Below are positions 13,458 to 21,766 of a stretch of DNA of 64,000 nt, piece after piece (position 1 is the stretch's first letter; the number at the start of each line of letters is the position of its first letter). A program made the translations under genes and the position numbers. Source of the stretch: Agrococcus sp. Marseille-P2731 (GTDB lineage: Bacteria; Actinomycetota; Actinomycetes; Actinomycetales; Microbacteriaceae); assembly GCF_900117395.1 (NCBI RefSeq), contig NZ_FPEG01000003.1, positions 806,001 to 870,000 of the forward strand, in the 5' to 3' direction. The notes under the pieces were generated by a model, which searched no databases, was not told where the DNA came from, and worked only from the letters and a program-made list of their open reading frames with translations.

Positions 13458-14759
13458 TCAGCGAGTGGCTGCGGCAGCTGCTCGAGCGGCGGCAGGCAGC
13501 GCCTCGACGATGCGCGCCAGCGGCTCGTCACCGTGCGAGGCCATCACGAACCAGGCCTCGAAGACGCTCGGCGGCAGGCTCACGCCCGCGTCGAGCATCG
13601 CGTGGAAGAACGGCGGGGAGCGGGAGGCGTCCTGCGCGCGCACCTCGTCGAAGCTCGACGGCGCGCCCTCTCGGAACGCCACCGAGAAGAGGCTGCCGAC
13701 CCGCGTGATCGCGTGCGGCACGCCCTCGGCGTGCAGCGCATCCGTCAACGCCTGCGTGATCACGTCGGCCGCGGCGTCGAGCCTCGCGTAGACGCTGTCG
13801 GTCGTCAGGCGAAGCGTCGCGAGACCAGCGGCGACCGCGACCGGATTGCCGGAGAGCGTGCCCGCCTGGTACACCGGGCCCGTCGGGGCCAGGAGCTCCA
13901 TGAGCGCTGCCTTGCCGCCGAGGGCGGCGAGCGGCATGCCGCCGCCGATGACCTTGCCGAAGGTGATGAGGTCGGGGGCCTCGTCACCCACCCACTGCTC
14001 GATGCCCCACATGCCGGCCCGGTGGACGCGGAAGCCCGTGAGCACCTCGTCGCTGATGAGCAGCGCGCCGTGCGCGTGGGCGGTGCGGGCGAGGAAGGCG
14101 TTGAAGTCGCCGTCGGGCTCGACGACGCCCATGTTGGCGGGCGCGGCCTCGACGATGACGGCCGCGATCTCGTCACCGCGCTCGGCGAAGACCGCCCGGA
14201 CGGCGTCGCGGTCGTTGTAGGGGATGACGAGGGTCGTCGCGGCGACCGCGGCCGGCACGCCGGCCGAGCCGGGCAGCGCGAGCGTCGCGAGACCGCTGCC
14301 CGCGGCGGCCAGCAGCCCGTCGGAGTGCCCGTGGTAGTGCCCGTCGAACTTCACCAGCAGGTCGCGGCCGGTCGCGCCGCGCGCGAGGCGGATCGCCGTC
14401 ATGGTCGCCTCGGTGCCGGTCGAGACGAGCCGCAGCCGCTCGACGGGGCCGACGCGGCGCTCGACCTCCTCGGCGAGCAGCGCCTCGCCCGGCGTGGACG
14501 CGCCGAACGACAGGCCGCGGCTCGCGGCATCCTGCACGGCCTCGACGACCTCCGGGTGCGCGTGGCCGAGGATCGCCGGGCCCCAGCTCGCGACCAGGTC
14601 GACGAGCTCGCGACCCTCCGCATCCGTCACGTATGCGCCCTTGGCGCCGACGAGGAACGCGGGCGTGCCGCCCACCGAGCCGAAGGCGCGGACGGGCGAG
14701 CTCACGCCGCCCGGGATCGCGAGCTTGGCCCGCTCGAACAGCTCGGCGTTGGTGCTCAC
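13458..14759 (-). CDS. hemL: Glutamate-1-semialdehyde 2,1-aminomutase
   Basis: A 433-residue PLP enzyme that makes 5-aminolevulinate from the GluTR product. Motifs: [16 protein letters not shown] (phosphate pocket), [21 protein letters not shown] (Asp237 to the pyridine nitrogen) and the Schiff-base Lys269 in [14 protein letters not shown] 14759 overlaps the hemB stop by 4 bp (GTGA). The last ten residues are Ala-rich. Together with hemB it forms a two-gene unit 28 kb away from the main haem cluster. Confidence 0.95.
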
Positions 14760-15793
14760 GGTCGTGCCCCCGATGCTCCGTGCAGGCCCTGGTCGGGCAT
14801 GCCCTGCGTGCTGAGCCCGCGCGCCTGCAGCCATTCGGCCTGCTCGATGGCCCAGTAGGTCAGCACGGTGTCGGCCCCGGCCCGCACGATGCTCGTCAGG
14901 CTCTCGGTGATGAGGCGGTCGCGGTCGATCCAGCCGTTCGCGGCCGCGGCCTCGACCATCGCGTACTCCCCCGACACCTGATAGGCCCAGACGGGCACGT
15001 CGGATGCGGCGGCGACGTCGGCGAGCACGTCGAGGTAGAGGCCGGCCGGCTTCACCATCACGATGTCGGCGCCCTCGGCGATGTCGAGGAGCGCCTCGCG
15101 CAGGCCCTCGCGGCGGTTGCCCGGATCCTGCTGGTAGGTCTTGCGGTCGCCGGTGAGGCTCGAGTCGACGGCCTCGCGGAAGGGGCCGTAGAGCGCGGTC
15201 GCGTACTTCGCGCTGTAGGCGAGGATCGCGGTCTGCTGGTGGCCGGTGGCGTCGAGGGCGGTGCGCACGTGCTCGACCTGGCCGTCCATCATGCCGCTGA
15301 GGCCGAGGATGCGGCTGCCGGCCTCGGCCTGCGCGATGGCCATGTCGGCGTAGCGCTCGAGGGTCGCGTCGTTGTCGACCGAGCCGTCGTCGGCGAGCAC
15401 GCCGCAGTGGCCGTGGTCGGTGAACTCGTCGAGGCACAGGTCGGTCTGGATGACCGTGGCGTCGCCGAAGCGCTCGGCGAGGAACGCCGTCGCGCGGTTG
15501 AGGATGCCGTCCGGATCCGTCGCTCCCGAGCCCACCGCATCCTTGTGCTGCGGCACGCCGAAGAGCATGACGCCGCCGATGCCGGCGGCGATGCCCCGCT
15601 CGACCTCGCGCGCGGCGGTGTCGAGCGTGTGCTGCACCTGGCCGGGCATCGAGCTGATCGCGCGCGGCTCGGTCAGCCCCTCGGCGACGAACATCGGCAG
15701 CACGAGCTGGGCGGGGTGGATGCGGGTCTCGGCGACCAGGCGGCGCATGGGTGCGCTCTGCCGCAGCCGGCGGGGGCGGATGGTGGGAGGCAT
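14756..15793 (-). CDS. hemB: Delta-aminolevulinic acid dehydratase (porphobilinogen synthase)
   Basis: A 345-residue enzyme that condenses two ALA to porphobilinogen. The active-site lysines are Lys196 ([14 protein letters not shown]) and Lys248 ([10 protein letters not shown]). The metal loop reads [15 protein letters not shown], i.e. Cys120-x-Asp122...Cys130. The middle zinc Cys of the E. coli type is replaced by Asp, a mixed type I believe is common in Actinobacteria. ATG 15793 has GGAGG 2 nt upstream and a TACCCT hexamer 7 nt upstream, so it may be nearly leaderless. It is coupled to hemL. Confidence 0.95.
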
Positions 15794-15814: not shown

Positions 15815-15853
15815 ACCCAGGGGCCGACCCGCGCTGCGGATCGGCCCCTGGGT
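15815..15853. terminator. 13-bp perfect hairpin terminator
   Basis: Arms 15815-15827 and 15841-15853 are exact complements (ACCCAGGGGCCGA and its partner) with a 13-nt loop. It lies 22 bp beyond the permease stop and separates the HMG-CoA operon from hemB. Confidence 0.7.
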
Positions 15854-15875: not shown

Positions 15876-17258
15876 TCAGGCGAAGAGCGCCATGATCGCG
15901 GGCACCGAGAGCGCCGCGACGTAGAAGCCCATGAACTGCACGCCCGTGTGCATGTTGAACATGCGGTTGAGCATGCCGCCCACGAGGCCGACCGTGAGCG
16001 TCACCAGCAGCGCGACGATGCCGCCCTCGTAGAGGCAGATGACCACGATCAGCGCCGCGAAGGCCCCGATGATCGCCTCGTGCGAGACCTTGCGCATGAC
16101 CCACTTCGCCGCCCGGTGCGCCTGCGTCATCGCGAAGGGGTAGCTGATGAGCACCGCGATGATCACCGCGACGAGGCCGAACACGAGGAACTGCCACGGC
16201 TCGAGCATGTCGTGCAGGTTATTCGTCGTGCCCGCCTCGGTGTCGATCGTGTAGACCGGCGGCGCGTTGAACAGCGGGCTCGCGACGCTCGCGGCCATCG
16301 GCGAGAGCGGCAGGCCGATCGCGATGAGCGGGATGAGCGTCTCGGCGATGTACGTCGACTCGGTCGTGCCGTTGCGGATGGCCATGCGCGCCGTGAGGCG
16401 GTGGTAGCCGTTCTTGAAGCGAGCGCCGAAGAGCTCACCCATGAGCACCGTCATGGCCACCGGCGAGAACACGAAGGTCGCGCTCGAGATGCCCGCGGCG
16501 GTCGCCGTGTAGCCGAGCTGCTTGCGGTCGAGCACCGAGAGCGGGTTCGGCATCCGCCCCTTCCAGGTGCGCGTGTCGCGCGCGAGCTCGAAGGTGCGCT
16601 GCTCGGTGCGACCGATGAGCTTGCGCCCTGCGGGGCTCGAGGCGAGGAAGAGGTCGGCGATCAGCGGACCGGTCGCGATGCCGAGGAAGAACGCGATGGT
16701 GAGGCCCTTGTCGAGCACCGAGGTCGCGAAGCCCTGCAGCCCGACCACGAGCAGCACGAAGGGCACGAGCGCGAACAGCGCGGCCCAGCGGCCCTTCGAG
16801 AGCACGGCGACGAGCGCGGCGGCCCCGAGGAACAGCCACGGCGCCACGGCGCCGATCGCGTCGGCGAAGGGGGTGAGCACGAGCGCGAAGAGCACGGCGA
16901 GCGGCACGGCGATGAGCGCCGCGACGACGCCGCCGGAGATCGCCTTGCGCAGCGCGATGTGCGGCACGCCGAGCTCGCGCAGCATCTGCGCGTCCTGCAG
17001 CAGGGGCGCAGCCATGGTGTCGCCCGGGATGCCGAGCAGGGTGGTCGGGATCGCGTGGGTGATGTGCTTCGAGGCGACTGCCGCCATGAAGAAGGCGAAG
17101 ACACCGGGTGCCGGCACGCCCAGCAGGATCACGAGCAGCGTCACGGGCGCGATGGTGGCGGTCTCGTCGGTGCCGGAGACCAGGCCGAGGAGGCCGAAGA
17201 CGATGGCGCCGATGAGCGCCATGCCCACGGCCCAGAGGGTTGCGTCGAGGATCTCCAT
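15876..17258 (-). CDS. Divergent TctA-family permease of the HMG-CoA operon
   Basis: A 460-residue polytopic membrane protein, somewhat shorter than the usual 500-residue TctA. The hallmark HAIPTTLLGIPGDTMAAPLL near residues 73-92 matches the TctA substrate motif (G-x-P-G), and a second inverted-repeat half carries the GLPLSPMAASVASPLF segment. About 11-12 helices. TctA proteins import carboxylates with TctB and a periplasmic TctC; here no TctC gene is present. The start ATG 17258 shares a base with the stop of the upstream small gene (TGATG). Being the last gene of the mvaA-mvaB operon, it is inferred to import mevalonate or another hydroxy acid. Confidence 0.75.
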   Translation of the reverse strand: MEILDATLWAVGMALIGAIVFGLLGLVSGTDETATIAPVTLLVILLGVPAPGVFAFFMAAVASKHITHAIPTTLLGIPGDTMAAPLLQDAQMLRELGVPHIALRKAISGGVVAALIAVPLAVLFALVLTPFADAIGAVAPWLFLGAAALVAVLSKGRWAALFALVPFVLLVVGLQGFATSVLDKGLTIAFFLGIATGPLIADLFLASSPAGRKLIGRTEQRTFELARDTRTWKGRMPNPLSVLDRKQLGYTATAAGISSATFVFSPVAMTVLMGELFGARFKNGYHRLTARMAIRNGTTESTYIAETLIPLIAIGLPLSPMAASVASPLFNAPPVYTIDTEAGTTNNLHDMLEPWQFLVFGLVAVIIAVLISYPFAMTQAHRAAKWVMRKVSHEAIIGAFAALIVVICLYEGGIVALLVTLTVGLVGGMLNRMFNMHTGVQFMGFYVAALSVPAIMALFA

Positions 17259-17683
17259 CAGCGGTTCGCCTCCTTCGCGGCGTGCTTCGCGTGCTGGCGT
17301 GCCAGGTCCTCGTAGAGCCCGAGCTCCTTGACCTCGCGCAGCACTGCGGGAGGCAACTCGTCGGGGTCGCCGAGCGGGCCGAACTCCTCCTCGATCGAGT
17401 CCATCGCGACCTCGCGCGAGCCCGGCTCGTCCGCCGCCTCGACGAGGACGCGCTTCGGCGGGAAGATGCGGGCGGAGATGACGCCCGTCAGGACGCAGGC
17501 GCCCAGTCCGACCAGCAGCGCGTAGGACTTGGACAGGGCGGGGTCGATGGTCTCCGCCTGACCGAACAGCCATGCGGCGACTAAGTAGGCCGGGGTGCCG
17601 AGGCCGACGCCGATGAGGATGGCCCCGAGCAGGTGGCGCCCGTCGACCGTGTCACCCCAGACCTCGAGATACGTGCGCTTCAT
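17258..17683 (-). CDS. Small two-helix membrane protein, possible TctB-like partner
   Basis: A 141-residue protein with two hydrophobic helices (about residues 18-38 and 52-70) and a 70-residue charged C-terminal part ending LARQHAKHAAKEANR. TctB normally has four helices, so this is at most a reduced analogue. Its ATG overlaps the mvaB stop by 4 bp, and its stop overlaps the permease start, which argues that it is the permease subunit. I do not recognise a named family. Confidence 0.65.
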   Translation of the reverse strand: MKRTYLEVWGDTVDGRHLLGAILIGVGLGTPAYLVAAWLFGQAETIDPALSKSYALLVGLGACVLTGVISARIFPPKRVLVEAADEPGSREVAMDSIEEEFGPLGDPDELPPAVLREVKELGLYEDLARQHAKHAAKEANR

Positions 17684-18636
17684 CGCGCTTCCTTTCCGCT
17701 CGCGAGCGCTCGTGCGACGCGAGATGTCGTGGCCTTGCCGAGCTGCACGCTCAGCCAGTTGCCGGTGTCGGCGATCGCCGACAGGTCCATGCCGTGCTCG
17801 ATGCCGAGCCCGTCGAGCATCCAGAGGAGATCCTCCGTCGCCAGGTTCCCGGTCGCGGACTTCGCGAACGGGCAGCCGCCCGTGCCTGCGACCGCGCTGT
17901 CGAAGATGCGCACGCCTGCCTCGAGGCCCGCGTAGACGTTCGCGAGCGCCTGGCCATAGGTGTCGTGCATGTGCAGCGCGAGCAGGTCGACGGGGATGCC
18001 GCGGTCGCGGTGCGCCGCGACGACGTCGGTGACCGCGCCGGGGGTGCCGACGCCGATCGTGTCGCCGAGCGACACCTCGGCGACGCCCCACTCGAGCATC
18101 CGCTCGGAGACCTCGACGGTCGCCTCGTGCGCGACCGGCCCCTCCCAGGGGTCGCCGAAGACCATGGAGACGTAGCCGCGCACCCGGATCCCCTGCTCGA
18201 GCGCCGCGCGCACGACCGCCTCAGCGGCGCGCTCGGCATCGGCCTTCGAGGCGCCGAGGTTCGCGAGTGAGAAGCGCTCGGTCGCGCTGAGGAAGACCGC
18301 GACCTCGCGAGCGCCGGCGGCGACCGCGTCGTCGAGCCCGCGCAGGTTCGGCGTGAGCACGGGCAGCCGCACGCCGACGTCGCCGAGCGCGCTCAGCACC
18401 TCACCGGAGCCGGCCATCTGCGGCACGCGGTCTGCGCGCACGAAGCTGCCCGCCTCGATCACGCTGGCCCCGGCTGCCGCGAGCCGCCGGATCAGGTCGA
18501 CGCGGTCGCCGACGGAGAGCGATGTCGCCTCGGCCTGCAGACCGTCACGGGGGCCGACCTCCCAGATCGTCACGCGCTCGGGCAGCCCCGCGCGGGAGCG
18601 CGGGACGGGGAGCCCGAGGGCGAGGGTGTCGGTCAC
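17680..18636 (-). CDS. mvaB: Hydroxymethylglutaryl-CoA lyase
   Basis: A 318-residue TIM-barrel lyase that cleaves HMG-CoA to acetyl-CoA and acetoacetate. Residues seen: Arg30-Asp31 in VGPRDGLQ, metal ligands His222 and His224 in ALHMHDTYG, and the catalytic-loop Cys255 in GTGGCPFAKSATGN. The loop that usually reads SCVLGCPYEG is here SMVFGDPWEG, so both of its cysteines are missing; this is a variant subgroup, and a related substrate is possible. It overlaps the reductase gene and the small membrane gene by 4 bp each, so all four genes are one translational unit. Confidence 0.88.
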   Translation of the reverse strand: MTDTLALGLPVPRSRAGLPERVTIWEVGPRDGLQAEATSLSVGDRVDLIRRLAAAGASVIEAGSFVRADRVPQMAGSGEVLSALGDVGVRLPVLTPNLRGLDDAVAAGAREVAVFLSATERFSLANLGASKADAERAAEAVVRAALEQGIRVRGYVSMVFGDPWEGPVAHEATVEVSERMLEWGVAEVSLGDTIGVGTPGAVTDVVAAHRDRGIPVDLLALHMHDTYGQALANVYAGLEAGVRIFDSAVAGTGGCPFAKSATGNLATEDLLWMLDGLGIEHGMDLSAIADTGNWLSVQLGKATTSRVARALASGKEAR

Positions 18637-19898
18637 GCCTTGCCCCGGATGGCGGCGAGCTCGCGCTCGGCGACGTCGGCGCGCACGGCGCGCTGCTCGA
18701 CGAGGCGCGCGGCGACGGCCTCGATCTCGTCGCCCTCCGCGCCTGCGGCCACGGCGACGTTGCGAGCGTGCAGGGCCATGTGCCCCTGCTGGATGCCCTC
18801 GGCGGCGAGCGCGCGCACGGCGGCGACGTTCTGCGAGAGGCCGACGGCGCAGATCAGCTCTGCGAGCTCCTGCGCGGTCGTGACCTCGGTCATCGCGACG
18901 GCGGCCTGGGCTGCGGGATGCGACTTGGTCGCGCCCCCGACGAGGCCGACGGCGAGGGGCAGCTCGAGCGTGGCGACGAGGTCGCCGGCCGCGTCGCGCT
19001 CGAAGTGCGAGAGCGAGCCGTAGTGGCCGTCGCGCGCCGCGTGCGAGTGCGCTCCTGCCTCCACCGCGCGGGTGTCGTTGCCGGTCGCGAGCACGACGGC
19101 GGTGATGCCGTTCATGATGCCCTTGTTGTGCGTGGCGGCGCGGTAGGGGTCGTCCTCCGCCAGCTGAGCGCCGAGGATCATGTTCTCGACGACCTCGGCG
19201 CCGCCGAGCATCTCGGCGGGGACCGTGACGCGCGCGCGGCTGAGGCGCAGGTCGGCCTTGTTCGTCAGGATGCGCAGCAGCGGCCGGCCGCCGGCGAGCT
19301 CGGCGACCCGAGGTGCGATGGCCTCCGCCATGGTGTTGACAGCGTTCGCGCCCATCGCGTCGCGGACGTCGACCAGCAGGTGCGCGACGAGGTGCCGCCG
19401 TCCGCCGCGCTCGACGATCCGAACGATCAGGTCGCGCACGCCGCCGCCGAGCTCCACCAGCCGCGGGTCCTGCTCGTCGGCGAGGCGCATGAGCTCGTCG
19501 CGCTGCTCGAGGATGCGCAGCTTCGCGCCGTGCGCGTCGGCGACCTCGACGACGTGGATCTGCGCCTGCATGATGGGCGCCGTGCTCGAGGTCGTGAACC
19601 CGCCGCGCTCGCGCGCCATGCGGGCGACGTTGCTCGCGGCCGCGACGACCGAGGGCTCCTCGGTGGCCATGGGCACGAGCACCTCGCGACCGTTCACGAG
19701 GAAGTTCGTGGCGACGCCGAGCGGGATGCCGATCTGGCCGACGACGTGCTCGATCATGCGATCGGCGCGCGCCTCGTCGAGGCCGCCGTCGACGAGCTGC
19801 GCGAGCGCATCCGGTGCGCCGAGCGCATCCGCGACGATCGCGCGACGCTCCTCGATCGTGTGATTGCGCAGCCCGCTGAGCCTGCTCGTCCGTGCCAT
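18633..19898 (-). CDS. mvaA: HMG-CoA reductase, class II (degradative type)
   Basis: A 421-residue class II reductase close in length to Pseudomonas mevalonii MvaA (428). Catalytic residues by alignment of motifs: Glu81 (ATEEPSVVAAAS), Lys259 (HNKGIMNG), Asp275 (GNDTRAVEAGAH) and His373 (GIQQGHMALHARN). The Lys-to-Asp (16) and Asp-to-His (98) spacings equal those of P. mevalonii. DAMGAN (180-185) is the dinucleotide-binding motif. ATG 19898 has GAGAGG upstream. Pairing with a lyase, and the absence nearby of HMG-CoA synthase or mevalonate kinases, point to the catabolic direction: mevalonate to HMG-CoA. Confidence 0.93.
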   Translation of the reverse strand: MARTSRLSGLRNHTIEERRAIVADALGAPDALAQLVDGGLDEARADRMIEHVVGQIGIPLGVATNFLVNGREVLVPMATEEPSVVAAASNVARMARERGGFTTSSTAPIMQAQIHVVEVADAHGAKLRILEQRDELMRLADEQDPRLVELGGGVRDLIVRIVERGGRRHLVAHLLVDVRDAMGANAVNTMAEAIAPRVAELAGGRPLLRILTNKADLRLSRARVTVPAEMLGGAEVVENMILGAQLAEDDPYRAATHNKGIMNGITAVVLATGNDTRAVEAGAHSHAARDGHYGSLSHFERDAAGDLVATLELPLAVGLVGGATKSHPAAQAAVAMTEVTTAQELAELICAVGLSQNVAAVRALAAEGIQQGHMALHARNVAVAAGAEGDEIEAVAARLVEQRAVRADVAERELAAIRGKA

Positions 19899-19978
19899 CC
19901 TCGCCACCTCTCGCGCCGCACCCTCGTCGGCCGCCTCAGTCAAGCGCGCGGCGCACCGCGGGTGCATGGCCGGATGGG
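19899..19978 (-). promoter_or_regulatory. Candidate promoter/operator of the mvaA operon
   Basis: The 80-bp spacer after the regulator stop contains, on the minus strand, TTGACT (19943-19938), a good -35 hexamer, and a short dyad GCACC-GCG-GGTGC (19953-19965). No convincing -10 box was found, so this is tentative. Confidence 0.3.
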
Positions 19979-21766
19979 TCACATTCCGGGGGTCGAGCGT
20001 GTCCTCTCCAGACCCTGCAGTGCGCGGTGGAGTCGGATGGCGACCTCGACTCGGAAGCGCGGCTCCGGCGCATCCCAGTCCTCGCCGAGCAGCGAGCGCA
20101 GCCGCGCCGCTCGCTGCTTCACGGTGCTGACGTGCACGCGCAGCACTCGGGCAGCCGAGACCGCCGAGCCCTGCGCCTCCAGCAGCGCGGCGAGCGTCGC
20201 ACCGAGCTCGGTGCCGCGACGCGCATCCCATCCGAGCACCGCGCCGATCGATGCGTCGATGAAGGCGCGAGCGCGTGCGCCGTCGTCGTCGAACATCGCC
20301 GCGTAGGGGCCGAGCTCGACGGCGGTCGTCGCCGCGTCGTCGATGCCGAGCCCCCGCAGCAACCGGGCGGCGCGCACCGCGGCGCGCATGCCCGACTGCG
20401 CGCCGGCGAGGGTCGCGACGGGCTCGGCGACCACGACCGCCGGCAGCCCCTCCAGCAGCGAGCGCACGGTCGATGCCGCCCGCTGCGCCTCGCCCTCCGG
20501 CACGAGCACCGCGCATCCGTCCGGAGCGATGCTGACGAGCGCGCCTCGCAGCTGCCGCAGTCGCGCGGCGGCGCGCGAGCGCTCGCTCTCGGCCACGCTC
20601 ACCGCGACCGTGCTCCACGGGCGGTCCACCGCGACCCCTCGCTGCCGCGCGCGGCGCACGGCCGCCTCGGCGTCGGCGCTGTCGAGCAGGTCGAGCACGA
20701 GCTCGCCGCGCACGCGCTCCTCGGCGTCGGAGACCGCGTTGCGCTGCATCGTCACGAGCGCCAGGATCTGCGCAGTGCGCTCGAGCGTGCGCCGCTGCAG
20801 CTCGCTGAGCGGGGTGACGCCGCCGATGTGCACCGCGCCGATGCGCTGGCCGGCGCCGAGCACGGTGATCGTCGCGCGTACCGGTCCGCCGCCGAGCACC
20901 GACACCCTGCCGGTCGCCGCGCTGTGCGAGACCGCCAGGGCGAGCTCTGCGCGGGCGTCGCGCGCACCCAGTCGCGGCGTGCCCCAGAGCGGTTCGCCGT
21001 GCAGGTCCTCGGCCCAGATCGGGCGCTCGAGCGCCACGGCGAGCGCCGCGAGCACGTCGGCCTGCCCGCCGCCACCGACGATGAGTCCGGTGAGCTCGCC
21101 GTGCAGCCGCGACGCCGAGAGCGTGTCGGCTGCGAGCCGCTCCGCCCGCTCGCGCGCCGCCTCCGCCTCGTGCCTGCTCGCGGTCAGCGCGTCGAGCACG
21201 CCGGCGATGCGCAGCACGATCGCCGCGTGGTCGGCGAAGGCGGTGAGCAGCGACGAGTCCTCCTCGTCGAAGCGGCGCGCGGCGCGATTCGCGACGAACA
21301 GCACGCCAAGCACCTCGCCGGCCGCGAGCAGCGGCGCACCGAGGATCGCGTGGATGCCCTCAGCACCGACGATCTCGTCGATCTGGTGGTCGCGCGGCAG
21401 CGCACCGAGCTCGTCGTAGTCGGCGACCGACTGCGCGCTGCGCGTGCGAACCGCGAGGCTCGCGACGCCCACGCCCGCCGGAACCCGCATGCCGAGGAAC
21501 CTGCCGGAGCGCGAGCCGCGCACCGCGCGCACGAACAGCTCGTCGGAGTCGACGTCGTACACGGAGAGATAGGTGACGTCGGCACCCGCGAGCTCGTGCA
21601 CGCGATCGACGATGCGCTGCAGCATCGCCGTCGCATCCTGCACCTCGAGCAGGTCGCGGGTCGTGCTCGCGATCGCGGCGAGCTGCGCCTCGGCGCGCTG
21701 CAGGCGCTCGAGCTCGTCGCGCCTCGACCCGTCGTCGACCACGGCACCTCCAGCGCTCTCCGGCAT
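19979..21766 (-). CDS. GAF-domain PucR/CdaR-type transcriptional regulator
   Basis: A 595-residue regulator. Residues about 20-175 form a GAF sensor (VYDVDSDELFVRAVRGSRSG; GAPLLAAGEVLGVLFVANR). The middle (about 240-500) is a CdaR/PucR-like region, and residues about 530-590 form the PucR C-terminal helix-turn-helix (AARVLRVHVSTVKQRAARLRSL). It lies 80 bp upstream of mvaA on the same strand and is the obvious activator candidate. PucR-type proteins typically sense the substrate of the pathway they control; the ligand here is inferred to be mevalonate, HMG-CoA or a derived metabolite. Confidence 0.75.
   Translation of the reverse strand: MPESAGGAVVDDGSRRDELERLQRAEAQLAAIASTTRDLLEVQDATAMLQRIVDRVHELAGADVTYLSVYDVDSDELFVRAVRGSRSGRFLGMRVPAGVGVASLAVRTRSAQSVADYDELGALPRDHQIDEIVGAEGIHAILGAPLLAAGEVLGVLFVANRAARRFDEEDSSLLTAFADHAAIVLRIAGVLDALTASRHEAEAARERAERLAADTLSASRLHGELTGLIVGGGGQADVLAALAVALERPIWAEDLHGEPLWGTPRLGARDARAELALAVSHSAATGRVSVLGGGPVRATITVLGAGQRIGAVHIGGVTPLSELQRRTLERTAQILALVTMQRNAVSDAEERVRGELVLDLLDSADAEAAVRRARQRGVAVDRPWSTVAVSVAESERSRAAARLRQLRGALVSIAPDGCAVLVPEGEAQRAASTVRSLLEGLPAVVVAEPVATLAGAQSGMRAAVRAARLLRGLGIDDAATTAVELGPYAAMFDDDGARARAFIDASIGAVLGWDARRGTELGATLAALLEAQGSAVSAARVLRVHVSTVKQRAARLRSLLGEDWDAPEPRFRVEVAIRLHRALQGLERTRSTPGM

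Follow-up and report, generated by a model that had tools for sequence, protein, structure and literature searches.

The locus discussed here lies in a window of 64,000 nucleotides, the whole stretch of DNA that was analysed (positions 806,001 to 870,000 of contig NZ_FPEG01000003.1), in the 3.02-Mb genome of Agrococcus sp. Marseille-P2731. Mapping of open reading frames (ORFs) placed a unit of five genes on the minus strand at 15876-21766, and the genes, position, overlaps and spacing were those that a preliminary description of this DNA had given. From 5′ to 3′, the unit encodes a regulator of 595 aa with a GAF domain and a PucR-type helix-turn-helix (19979-21766), a class II degradative 3-hydroxy-3-methylglutaryl-coenzyme A (HMG-CoA) reductase of the mvaA type (18633-19898), an HMG-CoA lyase of the mvaB type (17680-18636), a two-helix membrane protein of 141 aa predicted to be the partner of a permease (17258-17683), and that permease, a divergent TctA-type protein of 460 aa predicted to import mevalonate (15876-17258). 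A gap of 80 bp separates the regulator from the reductase. The reductase and lyase genes overlap by 4 bp, the lyase and small-protein genes by 4 bp, and the small-protein and permease genes by 1 bp; the overlapping genes suggest that reductase and lyase are co-transcribed. The reductase has an alternative in-frame start at 19967, and its relatives favour the start near 19898. Judged from sequence, the unit is very likely an inducible operon for growth on mevalonate, which would enter the cell through the TctA-like pair without a dedicated binding protein.

The identity of the first three proteins was established by domain matches, motifs and structural relatives. In the regulator, the GAF domain covers residues 44-185 and the C-terminal helix-turn-helix residues 523-578; the protein matches PF13556 (HTH_30) at 48.3 bits against a cut-off of 27, as expected of the PucR/CdaR type. 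The reductase matches TIGR00532 at 398.5 bits (cut-off 259.95), and 1qax, which we take to be the Pseudomonas mevalonii enzyme, is among its nearest PDB relatives. Its residues E104, K282, D298 and H396 align with P. mevalonii Glu83, Lys267, Asp283 and His381, presumably the catalytic residues, and D167 aligns with Asp146, which we assume to mark the use of NADH. The enzyme is predicted to be NAD-dependent and would run in the oxidative direction. The lyase matches NF004283 at 334.2 bits (cut-off 246) and contains the motifs RDGLQ, HMHD and GCPFA; its closest PDB matches are HMG-CoA lyases, with the human enzyme at the top.

Mevalonate is a building block of sterols and terpenes, and bacterial growth on it has been known for decades. 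P. mevalonii reportedly has a mevalonate operon, mvaAB. The Agrococcus unit resembles it in joining a degradative class II HMG-CoA reductase and an HMG-CoA lyase in one operon; here the GAF/PucR regulator and the permease pair also belong to the unit. The catabolic operon itself is thus of an already known type; the P. mevalonii reductase and growth are treated in PMC13412983, the available part of which carries a 1985 reference on bacterial mevalonate growth.

The preliminary description had considered biosynthesis unlikely and had named genes for HMG-CoA synthase and mevalonate kinase as the finding that would speak against breakdown. The whole genome bears out that judgement. HMG-CoA synthase had no matches genome-wide, no mevalonate kinase scored above the cut-off (best 20.2 bits against 163.05), and the 1-deoxy-D-xylulose 5-phosphate (DXP) reductoisomerase of the methylerythritol phosphate (MEP) route is present. 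With no synthase, no kinase above the cut-off and the MEP route in place, the genome therefore neither makes mevalonate nor turns it into isoprenoids by the known route, and mevalonate biosynthesis was ruled out as a role for the locus. Because reductase and lyase stand together without the synthesis genes, as in the P. mevalonii type of operon, the best reading of the two enzymes is the breakdown of mevalonate, predicted to end in acetyl-CoA and acetoacetate.

The permease and its small partner

The permease belongs to PF01970, the TctA family (74.8 bits, cut-off 28.9), and in this the pair resembles the TctABC systems of the tripartite tricarboxylate transporter (TTT) family. However, its score is far lower than those of the two canonical TctA proteins of the same genome (513 and 429 bits, each with its own TctC), and it had no significant BLAST match to them. 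No solved relative of the permease was found by sequence at E<=1. The partner differs from TctB in having two helices, since TctB has four according to the available part of PMC5812351. Nor does a TctC gene adjoin the pair, as all three PF03401 sites of the genome fall outside the window. The predicted substrate, a monocarboxylate, is a further difference from TctABC.

The small protein matched no family of Pfam or NCBIfam at E<=0.001. Among 18 members of its group, none matched PF07331 (TctB) at E<=1, and the best family, DUF6232, was a weak one (5 of 18, best E 1.7e-4). Two membrane-length helices are predicted, as the preliminary description had it, and the structural model is usable (mean confidence score, pLDDT, 79.5) and had no PDB match at E<=0.001. 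Ten residues (EVWxDxV, L18, G59 and PKR) do not vary across ten rows that represent both catabolic and salvage settings, and EVWxDxV with PKR forms the signature of the protein; a Lichenicola homologue outside the ten-row set has Leu at two of the invariant positions.

The pair is predicted to be a departure within the TTT family, a monocarboxylate importer without a binding protein. Bacterial TctA proteins without TctC are described as rare orphans of unsure function in the available text of Rosa et al. (2018; PMC5812351), and archaeal TctA proteins as mostly alone in that of PMC5898192 and PMC10133366. The preliminary description had not known of an importer of this kind without a binding protein; no TctC adjoins the pair, but given these bacterial orphans such a lack is not in itself undescribed.

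Gene settings in other genomes and on plasmids

The context of the permease is conserved. In a scan of one genome per species among close actinobacterial relatives, all 11 permease loci (in Agrococcus, Microbacterium, Brachybacterium, Nocardioides and Cryobacterium) had regulator, reductase, lyase, small protein and permease in the same order and on the same strand, with the regulator homologue 5′ of the reductase in each. The synteny that the preliminary description proposed to look for in Actinobacteria is thus found, and a layout kept in 11 of 11 loci is therefore not due to chance. The nearest named relatives of the permease are two Agrococcus records (90% identity). In Agrococcus jejuensis (L020; L054 is the same contig) the regulator lies about 2 kb from the reductase, unlike in the other 10 loci. 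Apparent frameshifts in the permease and regulator of L018 led to its omission from alignments A1, A3 and A4 and from both trees; L019, with a shorter reductase match, was left out of A3. The permease tree, built without L018, L054 and L055, resolved the order within the catabolic group poorly. The lyase of L056 is missing from the context table, and an ORF with lyase motifs was seen there by eye.

Relatives of the permease on plasmids (Roseomonas, Lichenicola, Rhizobium etli and Burkholderia; 59-61% identity) adjoin an HMG-CoA reductase and a homologue of the small protein in six of six loci. The gene divergent from the reductase in these loci is annotated as a pyridoxal phosphate (PLP)-dependent aminotransferase-family protein and is read as a MocR-like regulator. 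Four of the six also have a lyase gene, on the opposite strand in R. etli; it was not found in the 15-kb stretches around the two Burkholderia loci, though pair and reductase are kept.

A second setting came to light in surveys that took in 398 family genomes and 396 phylum genomes. Permease relatives at E<=1e-30 occurred in nine genomes (the source genome counted once), and all nine stood among mevalonate genes. Four had a reductase alongside: the source genome, G722, G050 and G774, the last of which is the same contig as L020 and no new case. The remaining five (G460, G465, G526, G577 and G623; loci L071-L075; 33-36% identity) had lower mevalonate-pathway genes, and each of their permeases was accompanied by a small EVWND protein. 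In four of the five, the permease is followed by mevalonate kinase, diphosphomevalonate decarboxylase, phosphomevalonate kinase and type 2 isopentenyl-diphosphate isomerase, assigned by profile in L072 and elsewhere by tblastn with the L072 proteins. HMG-CoA reductase was found in none of the five genomes at E<=0.01, and DXP reductoisomerase was found in four; the fifth genome is 83% complete. With mevalonate kinase present and no match to the reductase, the one enzyme of mevalonate synthesis covered by the search, these genomes would therefore phosphorylate mevalonate but be unable to make it by the known route, and the five loci are apparently devoted to mevalonate salvage. The pair is the natural candidate for supplying the mevalonate. 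Mevalonate becomes the substrate candidate because it is the metabolite common to an oxidative reductase and a mevalonate kinase. It is fairly probable that the permease and the EVWxDxV/PKR small subunit form a separate, two-part, mevalonate-specific family that works independently of a binding protein and serves two fates: breakdown, beside reductase and lyase, and salvage of mevalonate from the environment into isoprenoids, beside mevalonate kinase in bacteria with the MEP route and no HMG-CoA reductase.

Other transporters stand at the reductase where the pair is absent. In a plasmid collection, the reductase matched 38 records. Seven Firmicutes, five archaeal, one Legionella and one Photobacterium record were set aside, and 23 of the 24 that remained were examined (H35 was left out), with L021, L026, L080, L081 and L084 read by tblastn only; the plasmid gene table is incomplete. 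Six of the 23 loci have the TctA pair, 13 a tripartite ATP-independent periplasmic (TRAP) system and three an ATP-binding cassette (ABC)-type component; at one, in Rhodococcus, no transporter was seen. On that plasmid an IS701 transposase directly follows the HMG-CoA lyase, at the place where a transporter would be expected (L059:8294-9550).

The 13 TRAP (DctPQM) loci belong to roseobacters and other Proteobacteria, and 11 of them have the same MocR-like regulator as the proteobacterial loci with TctA, but TRAP is a different family, with a dedicated binding protein. In nine loci the TRAP system is immediately downstream of the reductase, the position of the proteobacterial TctA pair, and in four it is upstream. 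Among the latter are two Sagittula systems, which have one gene between and are divergent (DctM 40-41%). The Ruegeria DctP had 2zzv as its top PDB match and 7e9y as its second; the latter is the lactate-binding TTHA0766, and 2zzv is presumably the same protein. TRAP genes beside a degradative HMG-CoA reductase were noted at L061, L062, L065, L066, L068, L080, L081, L084 and L085; these, with SPO_RS20640-20655 on the Ruegeria pomeroyi megaplasmid as an example, are candidate mevalonate TRAP systems.

In a reductase tree built without the archaeal and Firmicutes plasmid matches, loci with TctA, TRAP and ABC transporters were interleaved. The tree held 12 of the 13 TRAP loci (L083, on the second plasmid of one strain, was left out) and seven of 14 rows of a second type of reductase locus, discussed below. 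The TctA label requires five changes on it, at least four of which are forced by well-supported branches. The transporters have therefore been exchanged, and an exchange of unrelated transporters around one enzyme points to its substrate because each of them is expected to carry it. Two of the five archaeal plasmid matches were opened: on haloarchaeal plasmids L069 and L086 an AtuA-family gene and two small genes come straight after a degradative reductase, and a sodium symporter is close by, possibly an archaeal unit for the breakdown of mevalonate or a terpenoid.

Proposed import of mevalonate and its alternatives

In the proposed route, the TctA-like permease and its two-helix partner would bring mevalonate into the cell, probably in symport with an ion and with no binding protein of their own. 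The reductase, working oxidatively, would convert mevalonate, CoA and two NAD+ to HMG-CoA; the lyase would split HMG-CoA into acetyl-CoA and acetoacetate, which would enter central metabolism. The upstream GAF/PucR regulator would turn the unit on. We infer the substrate of the permease, the direction and ion coupling of transport, and the induction of the operon from the sequence record. The preliminary description had guessed at an importer, a guess now strengthened by synteny in two phyla, by TRAP systems where the pair is absent, and by a related pair in a mevalonate kinase operon of genomes in which no reductase was found.

Several observations weigh against this reading. As far as the available part of PMC5812351 goes, the TTT systems characterised to 2018 depend on a binding protein, and their substrates, nicotinic acid excepted, carry two carboxylic or similar groups. 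The AlphaFold model of the permease is too poor to use (mean pLDDT 36.8). The contig of G460 ends in the isomerase, the sole pathway gene visible there. The loci are in part non-independent, L020 and L054 being the same contig and two Sulfitobacter records a single strain. Finally, only three of 28 reductase matches in the 398 family genomes have the TctA pair; 14, one of them in the source genome, are of a second type without it, and 11 resemble the biosynthetic type.

The second type has a related regulator in 14 of 14 loci, a lyase in 12, and a class III CoA-transferase with a dehydratase-like protein in six. The representative in the source genome, at C1:1119942, lacks a lyase. There (L007:6196-11838), a GAF/PucR regulator, a degradative reductase (63% identity to the first), a class III CoA-transferase and a FAS1-type dehydratase-like protein were noted, and an amidohydrolase lies close by. 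Of 13 similar loci in other Microbacteriaceae genomes, 12 include a lyase. As for the biosynthetic type, a branch with full support sets its seven tree rows (five of the 11 from the family survey and two from the phylum survey) apart from the operon reductase. The neighbours of L042, L047, L057 and L058 resemble, by eye and without profiles, mevalonate-pathway kinases and decarboxylases; L037, a 3.2-kb contig, was grouped with this type on identity (46%) alone. Because only three of the 10 listed genomes of the genus have the pair, the unit is accessory.

Among the alternatives, the one that fares best keeps the importer and lets it borrow a binding protein from another locus, such as a product of the three TctC genes in this genome. 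Binding proteins that stand as orphans are frequent among TTT systems, according to the available part of PMC5812351. However, the two TctC loci examined each have a canonical TctA, and one also has a PF07331 TctB; the third TctC scores identically to an examined one and may be its duplicate; and the annotation of four plasmid loci shows no TctC next to the pair. We regard a borrowed TctC as unlikely. The TctC genes at C3:102277-103047 and C3:290944-291714 have identical scores on opposite strands and, given a contamination value of 7.69%, may stem from duplication of a segment or from an artefact of assembly that doubled it.

Less probable still is uptake of free 3-hydroxy-3-methylglutarate, or of some other hydroxy acid, through the permease, although a lyase is part of the operon and the TTT substrates known in 2018 almost all carry two acid-like groups (PMC5812351, in the part available). 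Free 3-hydroxy-3-methylglutarate would need a CoA-transferase and no reductase, and this operon includes a reductase but lacks a transferase. The Burkholderia loci keep pair and reductase together where no lyase was found nearby, and related pairs stand in mevalonate kinase operons of genomes in which no reductase was found. Export of mevalonate, made from leucine-derived HMG-CoA by a reductive reductase, would make HMG-CoA synthase unnecessary, and HMG-CoA reductase is reversible and HMG-CoA arises from leucine too; but it is very improbable, as HMG-CoA would be drawn off by the lyase of that operon, the reductase belongs to the degradative type predicted to use NAD, elsewhere it stands beside TRAP systems, which have binding proteins and are importers, and the salvage-type genomes have no reductase found that would supply mevalonate.

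If the pair does import mevalonate, the locus names two candidate genes for an importer. Early work on mevalonate transport was reportedly done in Pseudomonas sp. M. In the part of the open-licence PMC literature covered, no natural gene for a dedicated mevalonate importer was named, and no title joined the tripartite tricarboxylate transporter with mevalonate. A 2025 paper evolved a mevalonate importer in yeast and called a mutant MCT1 the only one known before; in its available text, mevalonate import systems are said to exist in several bacteria, and no bacterial gene is named (PMC12405511). Like the Agrococcus pair as predicted here, mutant MCT1 (F360C) and evolved yeast JEN1 are able to import mevalonate, but both are altered eukaryotic proteins (PMC12405511, in the part available). 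The relatives of the pair suggest an import-and-salvage route to isoprenoids. If the pair works alone, it would answer the question, raised in the accessible part of PMC5812351, of whether bacterial TctA acts without a binding protein, and a working mevalonate importer would be useful for terpene production.

Control and flanking sequences

Beyond the operon, two ORFs on the same strand (14756-15793 and 13458-14858 of the window) resemble hemB and hemL of haem synthesis by eye, and no tie to the operon was seen. Between regulator and reductase, a stretch conserved among three Agrococcus loci contains TTGACT (19938-19943, minus strand), which may be a -35 element; a sigma-70 scan found no promoter. 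An 18-bp hairpin lies between the permease and the next gene (15815-15853, minus strand), with arms of 18 nt at 15815-15832 and 15836-15853 that are 94% complementary. The downstream hairpin of the preliminary description is thus present; a scan for T-run terminators did not report it. It is likely a transcription terminator without a T-run, and the RNA between the permease and the next gene has a strong computed fold (-53 kcal/mol, z -4.83), equalled by none of 200 shuffles.

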